Shown here piece by piece: positions 468 through 6,202 of a stretch of 44,618 bases of DNA. The notes under the pieces are model-generated. The model was not told where the DNA came from. It did not search any database and saw nothing but the letters and a program-made list of their open reading frames with translations. Every line of letters begins with the position of its first letter. Position 1 is the stretch's first letter. The DNA comes from Clostridia bacterium (lineage in GTDB: Bacteria; Bacillota_A; Clostridia; Christensenellales; Aristaeellaceae), in NCBI GenBank assembly GCA_017518705.1, contig JAFWUC010000012.1, forward strand, positions 1 through 44,618, in the 5' to 3' direction. A program made the translations under genes and the position numbers.

Positions 468-1580
468 TCACTTCCCCTTCTTCGCGTTTTTGATCGCGCG
501 GGCTTCGGGCAGGAAGCGGCCGCTTTTGACCGCGCGCAGGACCTTCCACACAGGCAGCAGGGGCAGGAAAAGCTTATGCCTGTAAAAGAACGGGAAGGTC
601 TCCGCCGCCTTGGCGTACTCCGGGTTTTTGGGGCTAACCGGCACCGCCACCCGCTTTAAGGCGTACTTTAGCCGGCTCCAGCCCTCCTTTTCCAGCTTGT
701 TGGCGACCTTCTGGTCCACGTTTCCGAAGGTGCCGGAAGCCAGGAAATAATTGAGCATCTCGCTGTCTTCCCCCGCCTCTTCCCCGCCGCCAAACAGGCT
801 GAGCGCTAGGGCGCGGCTGCGCCTTTCGAACCCGTCTATGCCGAGCTTTTCCGTCTGCGCCGCCACATAGTCCATGTCGAGGTTATTGCGTTTAAGGAAC
901 ACATAGGTGTCCATGAGGGAGCGCAGCCCCGTGCCTTCCTCGGAATAGTGCTTGTGCTCGTGGGCGGTAAGGTAGACGTAGCAGTCCTCGGGAGTGAAGC
1001 TTTTTTCGCAGCCCTCGCCCTGCAGGCGACCCGCAACGTCCCTGTAATACTCGCACAGCGCCTTCCCCTGGGCGGGCTTGAACAGCGCGCGGTGCATCTC
1101 AAACGTCAGAAACGGGGGCTTAAAGTACACGTCGTGGTTGCTTACGGCGAAGTGCTGGGTTGTGTAGCCCAGGTCTTCCATGATCCGTTTCACGTCCGCC
1201 GCCCGCGTTTCGTCTATCAGCACGTCGTGGTCGGAGAACTCCCGCATGCCGAAAACCGGGTACAGGTCCTTAAGATACGCGCCCTTAAGGGGCAGAAACC
1301 ATATCCCCGCCGCGCCAAGCTTCTGTTTTATGCCCGCCAGCGCCGCGTTAAACAGCACCGCCTTGCGCTGGGCGGAAGCTATGGCGTCCTTTACGCGCAC
1401 GTCGGAAACGCCCGCCGCGTCAAGCGCGAAGGCGACGGCTGAGGAGACCATGTGCCCTTTGGCGAAGGCGAACACCCGGTCAAGCTCCATGGCGGAAGCA
1501 CGCTGCCTGTCCGGCGCTTTGCCGTTCACGGCGCAGGAGAGCAGGTAGATCACGTCCCGCGCGGTCACGCTGTCGGTCAC
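468..1580 (-). CDS. NTP_transf_5-type nucleotidyltransferase, peptide cluster
   Basis: A 370-residue protein of the nucleotidyltransferase family seen beside RiPP enzymes (Pfam NTP_transf_5 type). The signature is visible as LPLKG at 96-100 followed by LYP and GMREFSDHDVLI, where D117 and D119 would be the metal-binding pair of a polymerase-beta-like fold. Family members occur in lasso peptide and related clusters, where some modify the peptide or its substituents; the substrate here is unknown. The GTG start overlaps the TGA of the upstream peptidase gene in a GTGA arrangement, which implies translational coupling. It is the last gene of the minus-strand operon. The family call is fairly sure; a role in peptide modification is inferred from position. 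Confidence 0.8.
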   Translation of the reverse strand: MTDSVTARDVIYLLSCAVNGKAPDRQRASAMELDRVFAFAKGHMVSSAVAFALDAAGVSDVRVKDAIASAQRKAVLFNAALAGIKQKLGAAGIWFLPLKGAYLKDLYPVFGMREFSDHDVLIDETRAADVKRIMEDLGYTTQHFAVSNHDVYFKPPFLTFEMHRALFKPAQGKALCEYYRDVAGRLQGEGCEKSFTPEDCYVYLTAHEHKHYSEEGTGLRSLMDTYVFLKRNNLDMDYVAAQTEKLGIDGFERRSRALALSLFGGGEEAGEDSEMLNYFLASGTFGNVDQKVANKLEKEGWSRLKYALKRVAVPVSPKNPEYAKAAETFPFFYRHKLFLPLLPVWKVLRAVKSGRFLPEARAIKNAKKGK

Positions 1581-2026
1581 GATCTTTCACCCCGCTTTCC
1601 GAAAACACGGGCGAGCCTCGAGGACAGGAACCTTGTGAGCCTGCGCCAGAAGTACCTTGCGGGGAAGATGAAGTGCCACGCCCGGGCGTACAGCCGGTAC
1701 AGCCTGCCGTCCGCGGAGTACTGTTTCCCCCTGCGCATGAAGCCCGTGAGCACGCCAAGCACGTTCCCCTCGGGGACCCTCTCGGTCTTAAACGTGTTGT
1801 CGCCGCGGATAAGGTAGCCGTCCGGCAGCACCTTTATCACCCTGTGCGCCACGCAGTCCTTCCCCCGCTTATACAGCGCCACGTCGTATTTTTTGAGACG
1901 CGCGGACGGGACCCGTATCGTCACCAGGTCCCGGTTCTGGCGGAGCATGGGCTCCATGCTGGTGCCCCGGGTGCGGTAGACCAGCACCTTGTCCCGGGCG
2001 AGCACCTCTTCCAGCGAAGCGCTCAT
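1577..2026 (-). CDS. S26-like Ser/His signal-peptidase-fold protein
   Basis: A 149-residue S24/S26-type protein. The serine motif is GTSMEP with S23, and the box that normally carries the general-base lysine reads VAHRVI with H61. That matches the Ser/His (SipW/ER type) enzymes rather than the Ser/Lys bacterial ones. RGDN at 74-77 is the conserved Asp box. No clear N-terminal membrane anchor is visible, although the C-terminal part (about 113-135) is aromatic and basic. The ATG lies in an ATGA overlap with the stop of the PqqD-like gene. In this operon it is a candidate leader-processing peptidase for the three precursor peptides. Family assignment is sound; the substrate is inference. Confidence 0.8.
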   Translation of the reverse strand: MSASLEEVLARDKVLVYRTRGTSMEPMLRQNRDLVTIRVPSARLKKYDVALYKRGKDCVAHRVIKVLPDGYLIRGDNTFKTERVPEGNVLGVLTGFMRRGKQYSADGRLYRLYARAWHFIFPARYFWRRLTRFLSSRLARVFGKRGERS

Positions 2027-2283
2027 TCCTTAAGCGCGTTTATGCGGCGCAGGGTGTCCAGTATCTCCCTGACGTCCTTGGCGACCGTATCGCGGGGCGC
2101 GTCGTACTCGGCGCACACGGCGTCGATGATCTTTTCCTCGGTGGTCTCGGTCTTAAGGCAGTTCACTATGAACGCCGCGGTGCTGTTGCCCCGGGCGATG
2201 CCCCGGAACGCCTGCGCGCCCATGGGCACCAGGAACTGGGTGTCCTCTATGTCCTGGGTGATGAAATCAGGATCAAGTCTCAT
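2023..2283 (-). CDS. Stand-alone PqqD-like RiPP recognition protein
   Basis: An 86-residue PqqD-family protein, the size of free-standing peptide chaperones that bind leader peptides and present them to a radical SAM enzyme. The start is the ATG at 2283, preceded by AAAGGAG at good spacing; a longer upstream reading frame exists but overlaps the radical SAM gene and lacks such a site. The N-terminal part reads like a winged-helix fold with a central STAAFIV helix, and the C-terminal half is helical and charged. It follows the radical SAM gene by 11 bases and overlaps the peptidase gene, which fits a dedicated partner of the 2295-3605 enzyme. Confidence 0.85.
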   Translation of the reverse strand: MRLDPDFITQDIEDTQFLVPMGAQAFRGIARGNSTAAFIVNCLKTETTEEKIIDAVCAEYDAPRDTVAKDVREILDTLRRINALKE

Positions 2284-2294
2284 ATATGTCTCCT

Positions 2295-3605
2295 TTAGCA
2301 GTCCGGCTGCTCCGCCTTGTCGCCGCGGTCGTCTATGATCTCGCTTAGCGCCGCCAGCGTCAGCATCTTCATCGCTTCCCGGCAGTGGGCGTCGGTTATG
2401 GGGCAGGCGGCAAAGCCCGTGCAGTGGGGCAGGAACGGGCAGTCGGCGCACTTTTCGCGGATCGCGTCCGCGCGGCAGAAGTTAGATCGGGCGTTTTCGT
2501 CCGTCACGCCGTTAAACACGTCCCCGAAGCGCGCCTCGGGCGGACAGTGTTCGCAGGGGTACAGGCTGCCGTCCGGGCCGATCACCACCCCGCCCGAGTC
2601 CGCCATGCAGTGGAACACGCGGAACTTGCCGGCGTACGCGCCCGTGCCCGTGTTCCTGAAGCCCGCGGAAACGATGTCCTGCCGGGCGTCAAGTATCCTT
2701 TTGTGCAGCTCCAGGTCCCTGCCGCTTTGCCTCGCCTGGAACAGGGGAGCGAGGTAAACGGTCACGTTTTCCTTATGGCTTATGCGCGACTCCATGTCCT
2801 TTAGGAACGCGGGGACGCCGCCCCAGTTGTCCTCGTCCACGTTGCAGCGCACCGTGACGCGTATGCCCGCGCCCGCCATGGCGTCAACGCCCGAAATGAC
2901 CCGGTCGTAAGCGCCGAAATCGCCGATATAGTTTTTACGGAGCACGTAGTCCTTTTCCGCCCCGTCCATGGAGATCTGCAGCGACTCGAGATTCCACTCC
3001 CCCGCCATTTTGGCGACGATGTCAGGAGTCACGAGGCTGCCGTTAGACACCATCTTGCAGCGGTACTCCGCCCCCGCCGCCTTAAGTCCCGCACACACCC
3101 GGTCGATTATGTCCGGGCGCAGCAGCGGCTCGCCGCCGAACCAGTTGATCTGCGCCGTGCCTTCCGCGCGTGTTCCCAGTATGAACCGGACCGTGCGGCT
3201 GACCGTCTCGTCCGTCATGCTCACGGGCTTCACGCCCTCTTCATAGCAGTACACGCAGCGGGCGTTGCAGGCGGTGGTGGGCAGCACGGTGAACAGGCGC
3301 CAGCCCTTTTTGGCGTTGTAGGCGCGCATCACGCGGGACACGCCGTTGTAGAACGCGGTCTCGTCCCGCCCCTCGGGCACCAGGAACATGCTCTCGATAA
3401 GCTCGTCATACCCCTCCCCCGCTTTCGCTTTCGCGGGCAGGCTGCCCCGGATGAGCTGCCGGGTGAAGGTGCTGAACACGTACGGTTCTGAATTGTGCGA
3501 GAAAGATATGGTGAACCGGCTGGGGACGTAGGTCTCCCCCTCCCGGGGCAGCGCCCGGGGCAGCGCCTTCGTAAGCGCCGGGTCCGGCTTTCGTATCTCG
3601 GTCAC
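2295..3605 (-). CDS. Radical SAM/SPASM peptide maturase
   Basis: A 436-residue radical SAM enzyme. The cluster motif CNARCVYC gives C113, C117 and C120 for the SAM-binding [4Fe-4S]. The C-terminal third carries a Cys-rich SPASM region (YPCEHC, then CADCPFLPHC, then CPITDAHC) for auxiliary clusters. The roughly 100 residues before the CxxxCxxC are typical of peptide-modifying SPASM proteins. Such enzymes form thioether, carbon-carbon or epimerised residues in ribosomal peptides. The start is GTG at 3605 with GGAGG six bases upstream. It is encoded just after three Cys-containing precursors and before the PqqD-like protein, so the peptides are the likely substrates. The chemistry cannot be told from sequence. 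Confidence 0.92.
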   Translation of the reverse strand: MTEIRKPDPALTKALPRALPREGETYVPSRFTISFSHNSEPYVFSTFTRQLIRGSLPAKAKAGEGYDELIESMFLVPEGRDETAFYNGVSRVMRAYNAKKGWRLFTVLPTTACNARCVYCYEEGVKPVSMTDETVSRTVRFILGTRAEGTAQINWFGGEPLLRPDIIDRVCAGLKAAGAEYRCKMVSNGSLVTPDIVAKMAGEWNLESLQISMDGAEKDYVLRKNYIGDFGAYDRVISGVDAMAGAGIRVTVRCNVDEDNWGGVPAFLKDMESRISHKENVTVYLAPLFQARQSGRDLELHKRILDARQDIVSAGFRNTGTGAYAGKFRVFHCMADSGGVVIGPDGSLYPCEHCPPEARFGDVFNGVTDENARSNFCRADAIREKCADCPFLPHCTGFAACPITDAHCREAMKMLTLAALSEIIDDRGDKAEQPDC

Positions 3606-3627
3606 GTTTGTCCTCCATTATACGCGA

Positions 3628-3657
3628 TTGCGGCGCACAGACAGCTGTGCGCCGCAA
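3628..3657 (-). other. Strong hairpin between precursor genes and maturase
   Basis: A perfect 13-bp stem (TTGCGGCGCACAG with CTGTGCGCCGCAA) around a 4-base loop lies between the third precursor gene and the radical SAM gene. No T-run follows on the minus strand, so it is not a classical terminator. It could be a partial attenuator or an mRNA stabiliser keeping peptide transcripts more abundant than enzyme transcripts, as often seen in RiPP operons. Confidence 0.7.
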
Positions 3658-3675
3658 ACAGGCGGGTGATGCGTG

Positions 3676-3831
3676 TTACTTCAGGACGTCGTTGCACTCC
3701 ATGTAGTCCTGGCAGATGACGAGGTCTTCGCACAGGGCGGTGTCGTTGTCCACGCCGCTGGCGCAGGCGGACAGGATGGCGTCGTTCTCTATCTCGACGA
3801 CTTCCAGCACGGGCTTCACGTACTTCTTCAT
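3676..3831 (-). CDS. Precursor peptide C, Cys-containing RiPP substrate
   Basis: A 51-residue peptide. Residues 1-35 match the other two precursors (MKKY, V/E, KPVLEVVEIENDAIL, SACASGVDND, TALCE), and its tail is DLVICQDYMECNDVLK. Cysteines are at 23, 34, 40 and 46. GGAGG lies eight bases before the ATG. It is the last of three tandem copies and nearest to the maturase gene. There is no hydrophobic signal peptide. The conserved SACASG segment contains an A-x-A-like site (A22-C23-A24) that could suit the S26-like peptidase, but this is a guess. I do not recognise a characterised relative. Confidence 0.85.
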   Translation of the reverse strand: MKKYVKPVLEVVEIENDAILSACASGVDNDTALCEDLVICQDYMECNDVLK

Positions 3832-3846
3832 AATGCAGTCCTCCGG

Positions 3847-4002
3847 TTATCTGAGTTCGTTGCAGGTGGGGAAATCCGCGGTGCACGCGGGAGCTTCTTC
3901 GCACAGCGCGGTGTCGTTGTCCACGCCGCTGGCGCAGGCGGACAGGATGGCGTCGTTCTCTATCTCGACGACTTCCAGCACGGGCTTTTCATACTTCTTC
4001 AT
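3847..4002 (-). CDS. Precursor peptide B, Cys-containing RiPP substrate
   Basis: A 51-residue peptide with the shared 35-residue N-terminal part (MKKYEKPVLE onward) and its own tail, EAPACTADFPTCNELR. Cysteines are at 23, 34, 40 and 47. The ribosome site AAGGAG lies nine bases before the ATG. Codons 6-26 are identical at DNA level in all three copies, whereas the tails share little beyond the cysteine at 40. Copies B and C also share a last Cys followed by Asn. The pattern is a constant leader with a variable core, as expected for a multi-precursor RiPP family. Confidence 0.85.
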   Translation of the reverse strand: MKKYEKPVLEVVEIENDAILSACASGVDNDTALCEEAPACTADFPTCNELR

Positions 4003-4037
4003 ATGCGTTTTCTCCTTTTGCAGTGTCAGGGTTTATA

Positions 4038-4178
4038 TTACTTCTGGGGGAAATCGTCGCACACGGGGATGTCTTCGCACAGGGCGGTATCGTTGTCAAC
4101 GCCGCTGGCGCAGGCGGACAGGATGGCGTCGTTCTCTATCTCGACGACTTCCAGCACGGGCTTTACGTATTTCTTCAT
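4038..4178 (-). CDS. Precursor peptide A, Cys-containing RiPP substrate
   Basis: A 46-residue peptide, the first of the three tandem precursors and the shortest. Its tail is DIPVCDDFPQK, so it has cysteines only at 23, 34 and 40 and lacks the fourth. The ATG at 4178 is chosen because AAGGAGG sits nine bases upstream; an in-frame ATG three codons earlier directly abuts that site and is unlikely to be used. In the shared part it differs from copy C only by synonymous third-base changes (codons 3, 5, 27 and 30). That points to recent duplication with selection or gene conversion on the leader. Confidence 0.83.
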   Translation of the reverse strand: MKKYVKPVLEVVEIENDAILSACASGVDNDTALCEDIPVCDDFPQK

Positions 4179-4237
4179 GAAACGCATCCTCCTTACGGAT
4201 ATGTTTGTTTATATTCTGACCCGGCTTGCCGGGATGT

Positions 4238-4972
4238 TTACCCGTTCATGCCCCGGTATGCGGTGAGCGCCGCGTCCGGGTCCATGTTGCACAAAAGGCG
4301 GTAAAACTCGGTTTGCTTAAGCAGTTCCGCTTCCAGCGAAGACACCCTTAAGCGGTTCGCGGGCGCGTCGGACACGAAGCAGTGGCGGATGAGCAGCGCG
4401 TATGCGTCTGCCTTTGCAAGGGGTTCCACGCGGTTTTCCCTGCCCCGCTCCAGCTGCACTACGGCTTTGAGGGGCGCGGAAGCGTTGCGGCTCAAATGGT
4501 GCTTGCCGTCCCAGGGGGAACCGTACGCCCGGGCGCCTCCGCCCGACACCCGTATCAGGGGCTTGTCGTCGTTTATCATCCACACCCGGTCCCCGAAGGC
4601 TTCGCGCCACAGGCGGGCGTGGGTGCTTTTGCCGGTGCCGCTTAAGGCGGTGAACACGTACGCCTGACCGTCCATGCACAGCGCCGAGCCGTGCATCTGC
4701 AAAACGCCGTATTCGGCGAGATTCACTGCCAGAAGCGAGTACAGCGCGCTGTTTTCCAGGAACACGCCGCCCCTGGGTCTGGGGGCGAACCCCCGTTTCG
4801 CGTCCCGCCTGACGAAACCCGCCCATTCGGTCTCGAGGTCCTTGTCGGTGGGGCTCAGGGTGAACAGCGGGGGCTTGTCTGTCAGGTAGTCCTTAAAAAA
4901 CTCCCTGTTCTCCGGGTGCCGGCAGATCATCCTGAGCGGGACGCCCGCGAGCTCTACGCAAAAGTCCTCCAC
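4238..4972 (-). CDS. HprK-like kinase of RiPP cluster
   Basis: A 244-residue P-loop protein related to the C-terminal kinase domain of HPr kinase. It shows HGSAL at 94-98, a Walker A loop ALSGTGKST with K115, and NDDKPLI at 134-140 as the acidic metal-binding segment. It is shorter than true HPr kinase/phosphorylase (about 310 residues) and lacks that enzyme's N-terminal domain. HprK-like proteins occur in lasso peptide and other RiPP clusters, where some phosphorylate the peptide. The start is GTG at 4972 with AAGGAG six bases upstream. As the first gene of the operon, 59 bases before precursor A, it probably modifies or otherwise serves the precursors. The target is not known. Confidence 0.85.
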   Translation of the reverse strand: MEDFCVELAGVPLRMICRHPENREFFKDYLTDKPPLFTLSPTDKDLETEWAGFVRRDAKRGFAPRPRGGVFLENSALYSLLAVNLAEYGVLQMHGSALCMDGQAYVFTALSGTGKSTHARLWREAFGDRVWMINDDKPLIRVSGGGARAYGSPWDGKHHLSRNASAPLKAVVQLERGRENRVEPLAKADAYALLIRHCFVSDAPANRLRVSSLEAELLKQTEFYRLLCNMDPDAALTAYRGMNG

Positions 4973-5128: not shown

Positions 5129-6157
5129 TCAGGAATCCCGCGCCGCCCGCGCCATCGCCTGAAGGTTTTCCAGCGGGATGATGGGCGCGAGGTCGCAGCC
5201 CGGGGCGAGTATGAAGCCGCCGCAGGGCTTCATCTGCTCGCACAGCTCCCTGCTGATGCGGTAGACCTCGTCCGCGCTCTTCGCGGCGAGGATGCCGGCT
5301 GGGTTCAGGTTCCCGAACAACGCGGTGCGCCGGGCGGAATCCTGCAGCGCCTTGACCATGTCTATGGAGTCCACCGAGAACACGCCGAAACCCGCCTCCG
5401 CCACCGTGCTGACCAGCCTGTCGGTGCGTCCGCAGATGTGTATCAGCGTGTTCGGGCAGCGCTTTTCCAGGCGCCGCGCCACCTTGACGTCCGCGGGCAG
5501 CACGTACTTTTCGAACACGGAGGGGCGGATGAGGTCGCCGGAAGCCACGGGCTCGGGAATGGTGATCAGGTCCAGCCCGTTGTCGATCAGGTCCTCCAGG
5601 TAGGCGATCACGATCTCGGAGGCGAAGTCCACCGCCTTTACGATCTCCTCTTCCTCGCCGTCCATGAGCTCGACCATGAAGTCCTCCACGCCCAGCATCT
5701 GCGCCGCCATGGTGAAGGGGCCGAAAAAGCCGCCGCCGATCATGGTGTCGTCCCCGACCAGGCGCCGCATCTCCCTCATCTGCACCAGGGTGCGCTGATA
5801 GTAGAAGTCCTGCTTCATGGCGGCGATGACCTGCTTTACGTCGTATTTGTCTATGTCCGACAGGGCGGTCAGCGGGTGGAACACGATCTCCGCCGCGATG
5901 GCTTTCATGTCCACCTTGCCGCCCATGACCGCCATCATGGGCCACGCCGCCGCGCAGCCGGAAGTCATGATCTCGGTGCCGATCTCGCGGTAAGCGTCCA
6001 CCAGCAGCTGCGCTCCCGCGTCGGGAAGCTCCAGCAGTTTGCCCACGGTGAGCCCGTGGCGGGCGCAGATCCACATCTGGCCGTTGAGCACCGCGAAGGG
6101 CAGGCGGTCGGTGGGTTCGAACGCGAGGCTTTTGAGTACTCTTTCCTTATTGGTCAT
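5129..6157 (-). CDS. UroD/MtaA-fold family protein 1
   Basis: A 342-residue member of the uroporphyrinogen decarboxylase/corrinoid-cobalamin methyltransferase family. A zinc-type triad is visible: H240 and C242 in IHICGR, and C321 in APGCDLAP. This order and spacing resemble the zinc site of MtaA/MtbA methyltransferases rather than true HemE. No heme genes are nearby, so uroporphyrinogen decarboxylation is unlikely. The start at 6157 has AAAGGA upstream and begins MTNKERVL, typical for the family. It is the last gene of the sugar operon, 45 bases after the cupin. No corrinoid protein is encoded in the window, so the methyl donor or real substrate stays open; demethylation of a methyl-sugar is one hypothesis. 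Confidence 0.8.
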   Translation of the reverse strand: MTNKERVLKSLAFEPTDRLPFAVLNGQMWICARHGLTVGKLLELPDAGAQLLVDAYREIGTEIMTSGCAAAWPMMAVMGGKVDMKAIAAEIVFHPLTALSDIDKYDVKQVIAAMKQDFYYQRTLVQMREMRRLVGDDTMIGGGFFGPFTMAAQMLGVEDFMVELMDGEEEEIVKAVDFASEIVIAYLEDLIDNGLDLITIPEPVASGDLIRPSVFEKYVLPADVKVARRLEKRCPNTLIHICGRTDRLVSTVAEAGFGVFSVDSIDMVKALQDSARRTALFGNLNPAGILAAKSADEVYRISRELCEQMKPCGGFILAPGCDLAPIIPLENLQAMARAARDS

Positions 6158-6202
6158 GGCGTTTCCTTTCCGGCGCGCCGCGGCGCCACTGGGCAAATGG
6201 AG

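Follow-up and report, generated by a model that had tools for sequence, protein, structure and literature searches.

The window analysed here, a stretch of 44,618 nucleotides from a Clostridia bacterium (contig JAFWUC010000012.1 of assembly GCA_017518705.1), contains at positions 468-4972 a gene cluster for a ribosomally synthesized and post-translationally modified peptide (RiPP). The cluster is genuine, and many gut and rumen Clostridia have relatives of it. Judged by its sequence, it is a pathway of the type described for linear polyphosphorylated peptides (LPP) to which a radical S-adenosylmethionine (SAM) enzyme has been added, and without the radical SAM gene it would represent no new class. 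The novelty lies in the incorporation of a radical SAM enzyme into the pathway, the core being explained in large part by the published class. A RiPP pathway on an LPP core with an added radical SAM step is the interpretation we favour, with moderate confidence. The enzyme probably ties Cys to nearby acidic residues, the predicted product being Cys-Asp/Glu thioethers like those made by PapB (ranthipeptides) on a scaffold of the LPP type.

Gene content and the LPP-type core

The eight genes are co-directional and all located on the minus strand, as follows from the kinase gene onwards.

4238..4972, minus strand: HprK-like kinase (LppK/PadeK-like), 244 amino acids (aa); PEPCK_ATP 18.0 bits (under cut-off), AlphaFold2 fold match
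4038..4178, minus strand: precursor peptide 1, 46 aa; YxxP leader, SACASGVDNDTALC block, acidic tail with Cys
3847..4002, minus strand: precursor peptide 2, 51 aa; leader and SACASGVDNDTALC block as in precursor 1, tail variable
3676..3831, minus strand: precursor peptide 3, 51 aa; leader and SACASGVDNDTALC block as in precursor 1
3628..3657, minus strand: RNA hairpin between the precursor 3 and radical SAM genes; 13-bp stem, z -2.5
2295..3605, minus strand: radical SAM/SPASM peptide maturase, 436 aa, GTG start; Radical_SAM (Pfam) 65.3 bits
2023..2283, minus strand: discrete RiPP recognition element (RRE), PqqD-like, 86 aa; PF05402; conserved N33, Y60, D70
1577..2026, minus strand: SipW/S26-like leader peptidase, 149 aa; S23, H61, D76 kept in 28/28
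468..1580, minus strand: NTP_transf_5 nucleotidyl/glycosyl transferase, 370 aa; PF14907 129.9 bits; conserved K99, G100, R113, D117, D119

The co-directional arrangement and the GTGA (1577-1580) and ATGA (2023-2026) overlaps, described in an earlier sequence-only reading of this DNA, are present in the sequence. Pfam scores exceeded the cut-offs for NTP_transf_5 (129.9 versus 31.2 bits), PqqD (51.3 versus 23.4) and Radical_SAM (65.3 versus 29.5) and were under them for SPASM (18.4 versus 21.5), S24 (14.8 versus 23.3) and PEPCK_ATP (18.0 versus 26.5). Support for the kinase fold comes from an AlphaFold2 model (predicted local distance difference test score 95), for which PEPCK and HPr kinase/phosphatase are structural matches. 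The RRE matches the lasso RRE TbiB1 (E 1.7e-5), and the peptidase scored 23.4 bits against an archaeal signal peptidase model, under the cut-off of 51.85. A longer open reading frame (ORF) for the PqqD protein at 2023-2451 was rejected as an over-extension. Sequence searches of the PDB with the kinase, S26-like and NTP_transf_5 proteins returned nothing convincing, and Rfam gave no match at gathering scores. Precursor 3 has 12 database matches, itself counted. The hairpin, found also in the related locus L209 (z -5.1), may be an expression attenuator that keeps expression of the radical SAM gene below precursor level.

The LPP class was published in May 2026 (Popov et al. 2026, PMC13381572). 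As described there, LPP clusters encode the SipW-like peptidase LppS (S29, H68, D93), the RRE LppB, the HprK-like kinase LppK, the NTP transferase LppN, the MsbA-like LppD and YxxP precursors; LppK adds several phosphates to core Ser3, the leader is cut by LppS with the help of LppB, and deletion of lppN was without effect in the host used there. The window cluster shares with them the Ser-His-Asp SipW-like peptidase, a discrete RRE with matching residues in the pocket, the HprK-like kinase, the NTP transferase and a YxxP leader followed by variable C-terminal parts, and some relatives also share an ABC (ATP-binding cassette) exporter. The invariant peptidase residues correspond to S29, H68 and D93 of LppS as described, and the RRE residues N33 (47/48), Y60 (42/48) and D70 (39/48) to N33, Y60 and D70 of LppB as described (PMC13381572). 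Kinase residues H94 (31/32), K115 (32/32), D135 (29/32) and D136 (32/32) correspond to the His-Lys-Asp-Asp motif of lasso kinases, and the five NTP_transf_5 residues listed above are present in 17/17 sequences. Because the key residues of peptidase, RRE and kinase are conserved, the cluster is assigned to the LPP type plus a radical SAM enzyme.

The sequence-only reading had proposed a RiPP that is crosslinked and then phosphorylated or nucleotidylated, possibly of a class not yet described. Crosslinking and phosphorylation are plausible, but the class claim was not upheld, the core being that of LPP (PMC13381572); since the LPP set already comprises a kinase, an RRE, a Ser/His peptidase and an NTP transferase, an origin of these genes in lasso clusters need not be assumed. 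Differences from LPP are the added radical SAM/SPASM maturase, the Cys residues in the cores, perhaps the lack of an exporter (none among 30 window proteins scanned) and the location of Ser at Y+17 and Y+21, whereas the LPP Ser is at Y+18. Of the LPP precursor motif YxxPxVLxHQxIxFETxxS, the window precursors contain YxxPx[LM] and lack HQxIxFET. The radical SAM gene argues against a linear product, and the word 'radical' is absent from the main text of the LPP paper (PMC13381572). The 30 scanned proteins (the eight of the cluster, two adjacent and 20 further ones, 7 of these 20 without a Pfam match at 1e-5) represent part of the window genes, and the window ends 467 bases past the NTP_transf_5 gene; within this scope neither a lasso cyclase nor a B2 protease nor a peptide exporter was detected, in agreement with the earlier observation of a kinase and an NTP transferase beside a radical SAM/SPASM enzyme, with neither lasso genes nor an exporter in view. 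In the literature searched, with most subscription papers and bioRxiv outside its coverage, no well characterized family with the same gene set, no radical SAM enzyme with this kinase and peptidase set, and neither the Cys association nor the spacing of Cys and acidic residues reported below was found in print.

Cysteine and acidic residues in the precursors

The occurrence of Cys was compared between LPP-type loci with and without a radical SAM gene. A set of 79 loci was taken around the peptidases of a sample of 291 genomes from the class of genome G004, and own profiles detected PqqD in 63, the kinase in 52 and NTP_transf_5 in 18 of them within 8 kb. A radical SAM-type ORF was recognized by motif in only six loci (L148, L181, L183, L190, L193 and L194); the 73 others favour the view that a radical SAM gene merely neighbours an LPP cluster, with plain LPP precursors whose Cys residues serve in disulfides or metal binding. 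The absence of kinase or peptidase genes beside the radical SAM gene in some relatives points the same way. On the other side, all 27 precursors (20 loci) with any radical SAM gene in the cluster contain Cys, as does only 1 of 20 (19 loci) without one. By locus this amounts to 20/20 versus 1/19 (Fisher 3e-10, a value that overstates independence and is no true probability because the loci share ancestry, which tempers the association), and Cys accounts for 9.4% versus 0.2% of the residues counted. As PqqD, moreover, lies beside the radical SAM gene in 17 of 18 well-flanked loci (see below), we consider mere neighbourhood very improbable.

The loci compared are those in which a leader-type precursor was found, namely 20 of 34 with a radical SAM-type gene and 19 of 73 without. 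One precursor finder was applied to both sets and delivered 64 candidates (25 and 39), 17 of which were removed by eye, three from the radical SAM set and 14, five of them with Cys, from the other; with all 17 kept, Cys occurs in 29/30 versus 6/34 precursors (Fisher 3e-11 by precursor). Seven of the 27 Cys precursors stem from L181, L183 and L193, LPP-type loci with another radical SAM/SPASM type of 376-384 aa (also in L190 and L194); in these three loci it carries the motif ELTSRCNF.CKMCYV. Six proteins of this second type were scanned, and all scored far under the listed NCBIfam cut-offs. Since these loci supply 7/27, the association of Cys with a radical SAM gene probably arose more than once. 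A loose cyclase motif, as a link to lasso peptides, gave two matches in the first 40 of the 79 peptidase loci. One of these 40 loci, L153, is without a peptidase call.

For the spacing of the putative crosslinks, 62 precursor candidates from radical SAM loci were reduced by eye to 47 by removal of 15 that were not leader-like, and 46 of the 47 contain Cys. An acidic residue is present at C+3 in 45 cases versus 21.8 expected from within-core shuffling (z 5.9; 168 offset-class pairs). After removal of window cores and near-duplicates, the remaining 41 cores with 110 Cys showed 44 acidic residues at C+3 versus 18.7 expected (0/5000 shuffles), and none of the other offsets from 1 to 9 was under p 0.06. 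The enrichment is present both in the main clade (21/64 versus 9.7 expected) and in the remote clades (23/46 versus 9.0). In contrast, six precursors of the window type have an acidic residue at C+3 for only 1/20 Cys and at C+2 for 13 versus 4.4 expected; among 12 distinct window-type precursors, which like the six are close relatives, it is found at C+2 for 28/30 tail Cys. The six also show C+5 (9 versus 3.9) and C+7 (9 versus 3.6) enrichments, mostly from a common CASGVDND block. The acidic residue persists while the offset changes (C+3 to C+2), which suggests that it is the partner of Cys.

The predicted chemistry resembles that of the PapB ranthipeptide (freyrasin) in that a radical SAM/SPASM enzyme acts on Cys followed by Asp or Glu at a fixed distance, and differs in the spacing and in the kinase, peptidase and NTP transferase added in the window cluster. 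PapB forms Cys-Asp/Glu thioethers at CX3D/E and also accepts CXnD with n = 0-6 (PMC9413430). Several points weigh against the proposed bond. The native PapB spacing is C+4, neither C+3 nor C+2, and acidic residues at C+4 amount to 13 versus 17.6 expected. The window enzyme remains far under every named family, with 109 bits against the PapB maturase model NF047865 (cut-off 340) and 124 of 525 bits against TIGR04463, and its chemistry is for this reason not transferable by family. Aromatic residues, finally, are enriched at C+4 (17 versus 7.0 expected), making another acceptor possible. The same pathway might thus form another bond, such as a thioether to the alpha-carbon of a residue as in sactipeptides, a link to Ser/Thr of the SCIFF type, or a crosslink with the aromatic residue that often follows, in favour of which CteB and TigE may be cited in addition to the aromatic signal. 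However, the strongest and most offset-specific signal is the acidic residue at C+3, Ser/Thr is depleted at that position (8 versus 17.3) despite mild enrichment at C+1 (29 versus 18.6) and C+2 (27 versus 18.0), and the window clade moves to C+2 with the residue type kept. We therefore judge another bond to be unlikely, though a serious competitor, and retain the Cys-Asp/Glu thioether.

Recurrence of the gene set and the proposed phosphorylation step

The radical SAM family is large, uncharacterized and distributed in gut and rumen Clostridia. Homologues numbered 966 at E <= 0.001 among 7998 scored candidates; among the 120 matches listed, one is 81% and one 65% identical, the others 49-57%. 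The best 79 of 553 related loci, obtained by a scan of named genome contigs, carry labels of mostly uncultured Clostridia, Ruminococcus (isolates included) and Lachnospiraceae, with rumen or gut as a frequent sample source, and a few others (Planctomycetaceae, Anaerolineaceae, Lentisphaeria and Coriobacteriaceae). Viral contigs yielded 36 loci with only remote radical SAM relatives (best 32% identity), and a viral origin is accordingly not favoured. The subfamily is patchy, with 13/200 genomes in the family of G006 and 1/147, namely G003, in the family of G003 (both E <= 1e-80). Among the 291 genomes of the class of G004, the peptidase occurs in 76 (E <= 1e-20), all within the 85 having the kinase, and the radical SAM subfamily in two (E <= 1e-50), one being G004, the chosen centre of the sample.

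Co-occurrence in related genomes had been set as a test beforehand, and the gene order kinase-precursor-radical SAM-RRE-peptidase-NTP_transf_5 indeed recurs in relatives, the full set in only some. Locus L209, whose genome belongs to the same family as G006, contains the kinase, three precursors, the radical SAM enzyme, PqqD, S26 and NTP_transf_5 in window order with the five enzymes 64-78% identical, and because this order is kept at such identity the cluster is more than a chance assembly. The main clade comprises 25 other loci, 18 of them with at least 4 kb on both sides (well-flanked). Within 8 kb of the radical SAM gene, these 18 contain PqqD in 17, S26 in 11, the kinase in 10, NTP_transf_5 in 8 and all four in 6 cases. 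The low counts for kinase, peptidase and NTP_transf_5 count against a single integrated pathway, as does L018, the one well-flanked locus without any of the four partners. The peptidase is encoded elsewhere, with none within 8 kb, in five main-clade genomes (L010, L013, L015, L019 and L020), and 24/24 genomes encode both S26-like peptidase and kinase, although these 24 were hand-picked from the best 79 of 553 loci, for many the neighbouring gene is necessarily the match, and some of these genes were used to build the profiles. An ABC exporter gene adjoins the peptidase gene in L003, L008, L024 and L033, in three of these between peptidase and NTP_transf_5.

The putative phosphorylation and NTP_transf_5 steps are the most tentative of the pathway. 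In 11/12 window-type precursors, the only Ser residues are those at 21 and 25; the other precursor has a further one at 35. The LPP phosphosite distance (Y+18) corresponds to Ala22 in the window, flanked by Ser21 and Ser25, which speaks against a direct transfer of the LPP scheme; if LPP logic holds, the target would therefore be Ser21 or Ser25. Ser at the LPP distance is common, not universal, among the 47 precursors (Y+18 in 14, Y+19 in 21). Precursors 1-3 end in Lys, Arg and Lys and thus lack the C-terminal Ser of paeninodin kinase substrates. These properties, together with the lack of a kinase in 8/18 and of NTP_transf_5 in 10/18 well-flanked loci, fit a kinase and an NTP_transf_5 protein acting on another peptide or target encoded elsewhere, with an unphosphorylated radical SAM product. 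Yet the kinase gene is the first of the same array in the window and in L209, and seven main-clade genomes without a kinase gene within 8 kb (L002, L005, L009, L011, L013, L015 and L019) have one elsewhere; we regard a separate target as improbable.

Two further systems resemble the window cluster in part. Paeninodin-like phosphorylated lasso peptides (PadeK, ThcoK, PsmK/PsmN) likewise combine an HprK-like kinase with His-Lys-Asp-Asp, a nucleotidyltransferase, a YxxP/WxxP leader and an RRE, but the window shows neither a macrolactam cyclase nor a B2 protease among the proteins scanned. In the SynChlorMet cassette (ScmC, ScmE, ScmF), radical SAM/SPASM enzymes occur together with an HprK-like and a PqqD-like protein, and a SipW-like peptidase is not known from it; the window proteins score far under its cut-offs (ScmC 23 of 125, ScmE 46 of 400). 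That lasso clusters of anaerobes can contain HPr kinases had been reported earlier (PMC4289311).

As side observations, L020 and L025 contain tandem kinase-radical SAM-PqqD modules with precursors, and in L203 one radical SAM gene is flanked by two kinase genes. Some LPP-type loci without a radical SAM gene adjoin genes for surface proteins (SLH, BspA-type LRR, InlB-type repeats) or polysaccharides, for example L122:1733-3475, L129:1078-2766, L127:4304-5476 and L132:11682-13562; among the first 40 loci, such families were counted in 9, 3, 3 and 5. At L172:4259-6590, a single LPP-type cluster contains a tandem pair of NTP_transf_5-like genes. In the window, a 148-nt direct repeat (1-148 and 302-449, 98% identical) lies past the 3' end of the NTP_transf_5 gene. 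A URO-D family gene (5129-6196) is located between the kinase gene and a cupin gene, with no ORF of the same size listed there in L209, and 9948-32506 is largely devoted to glycan utilization (GH127, fucosidase, SASA esterase, GH42, GH2, sugar-type ABC permeases and an SSF symporter).

Proposed pathway and its significance

In the proposed pathway the discrete RRE would bind the YxxP leader of the precursor, as the conserved pocket residues suggest. The radical SAM/SPASM enzyme would abstract hydrogen from the acidic residue shortly after each Cys and bond the sulfur to the same carbon. The resulting small rings, Cys-Asp/Glu thioethers, would have the form C-X2-D/E in most relatives and C-X-D/E in the window peptides. 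By analogy with LppK, the HprK-like kinase would phosphorylate a Ser just after the leader. The RRE would present the peptide to the Ser-His-Asp SipW-like peptidase for leader removal, a role that is in print for LppS. As the weakest step, the NTP_transf_5 protein may modify the phosphate with a nucleotidyl or sugar moiety. This follows the proposal for PsmN, which in a lasso peptide study was reported to add hexoses to phosphorylated Ser (PMC9266682). Export would be by an ABC transporter of the kind encoded beside the peptidase in several relatives.

Whether these peptides form a new RiPP class of phosphorylated ranthipeptides is, in our estimate, evenly balanced. Such a class would be characterized by Cys-(X)1-2-Asp/Glu thioethers, Ser (poly)phosphorylated by an HprK-like kinase and possibly a sugar or nucleotide cap, with LPP as a general maturation core for which crosslinking enzymes were recruited at least twice, core Cys appearing each time. 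If this is true, radical thioether crosslinks and phosphate-based chemistry would meet in one peptide, and the LPP core would serve linear and crosslinked peptides alike as a common platform. The comparison of loci with and without the radical SAM gene provides natural controls for the role of each enzyme, and the radical SAM family is large in metagenomes.

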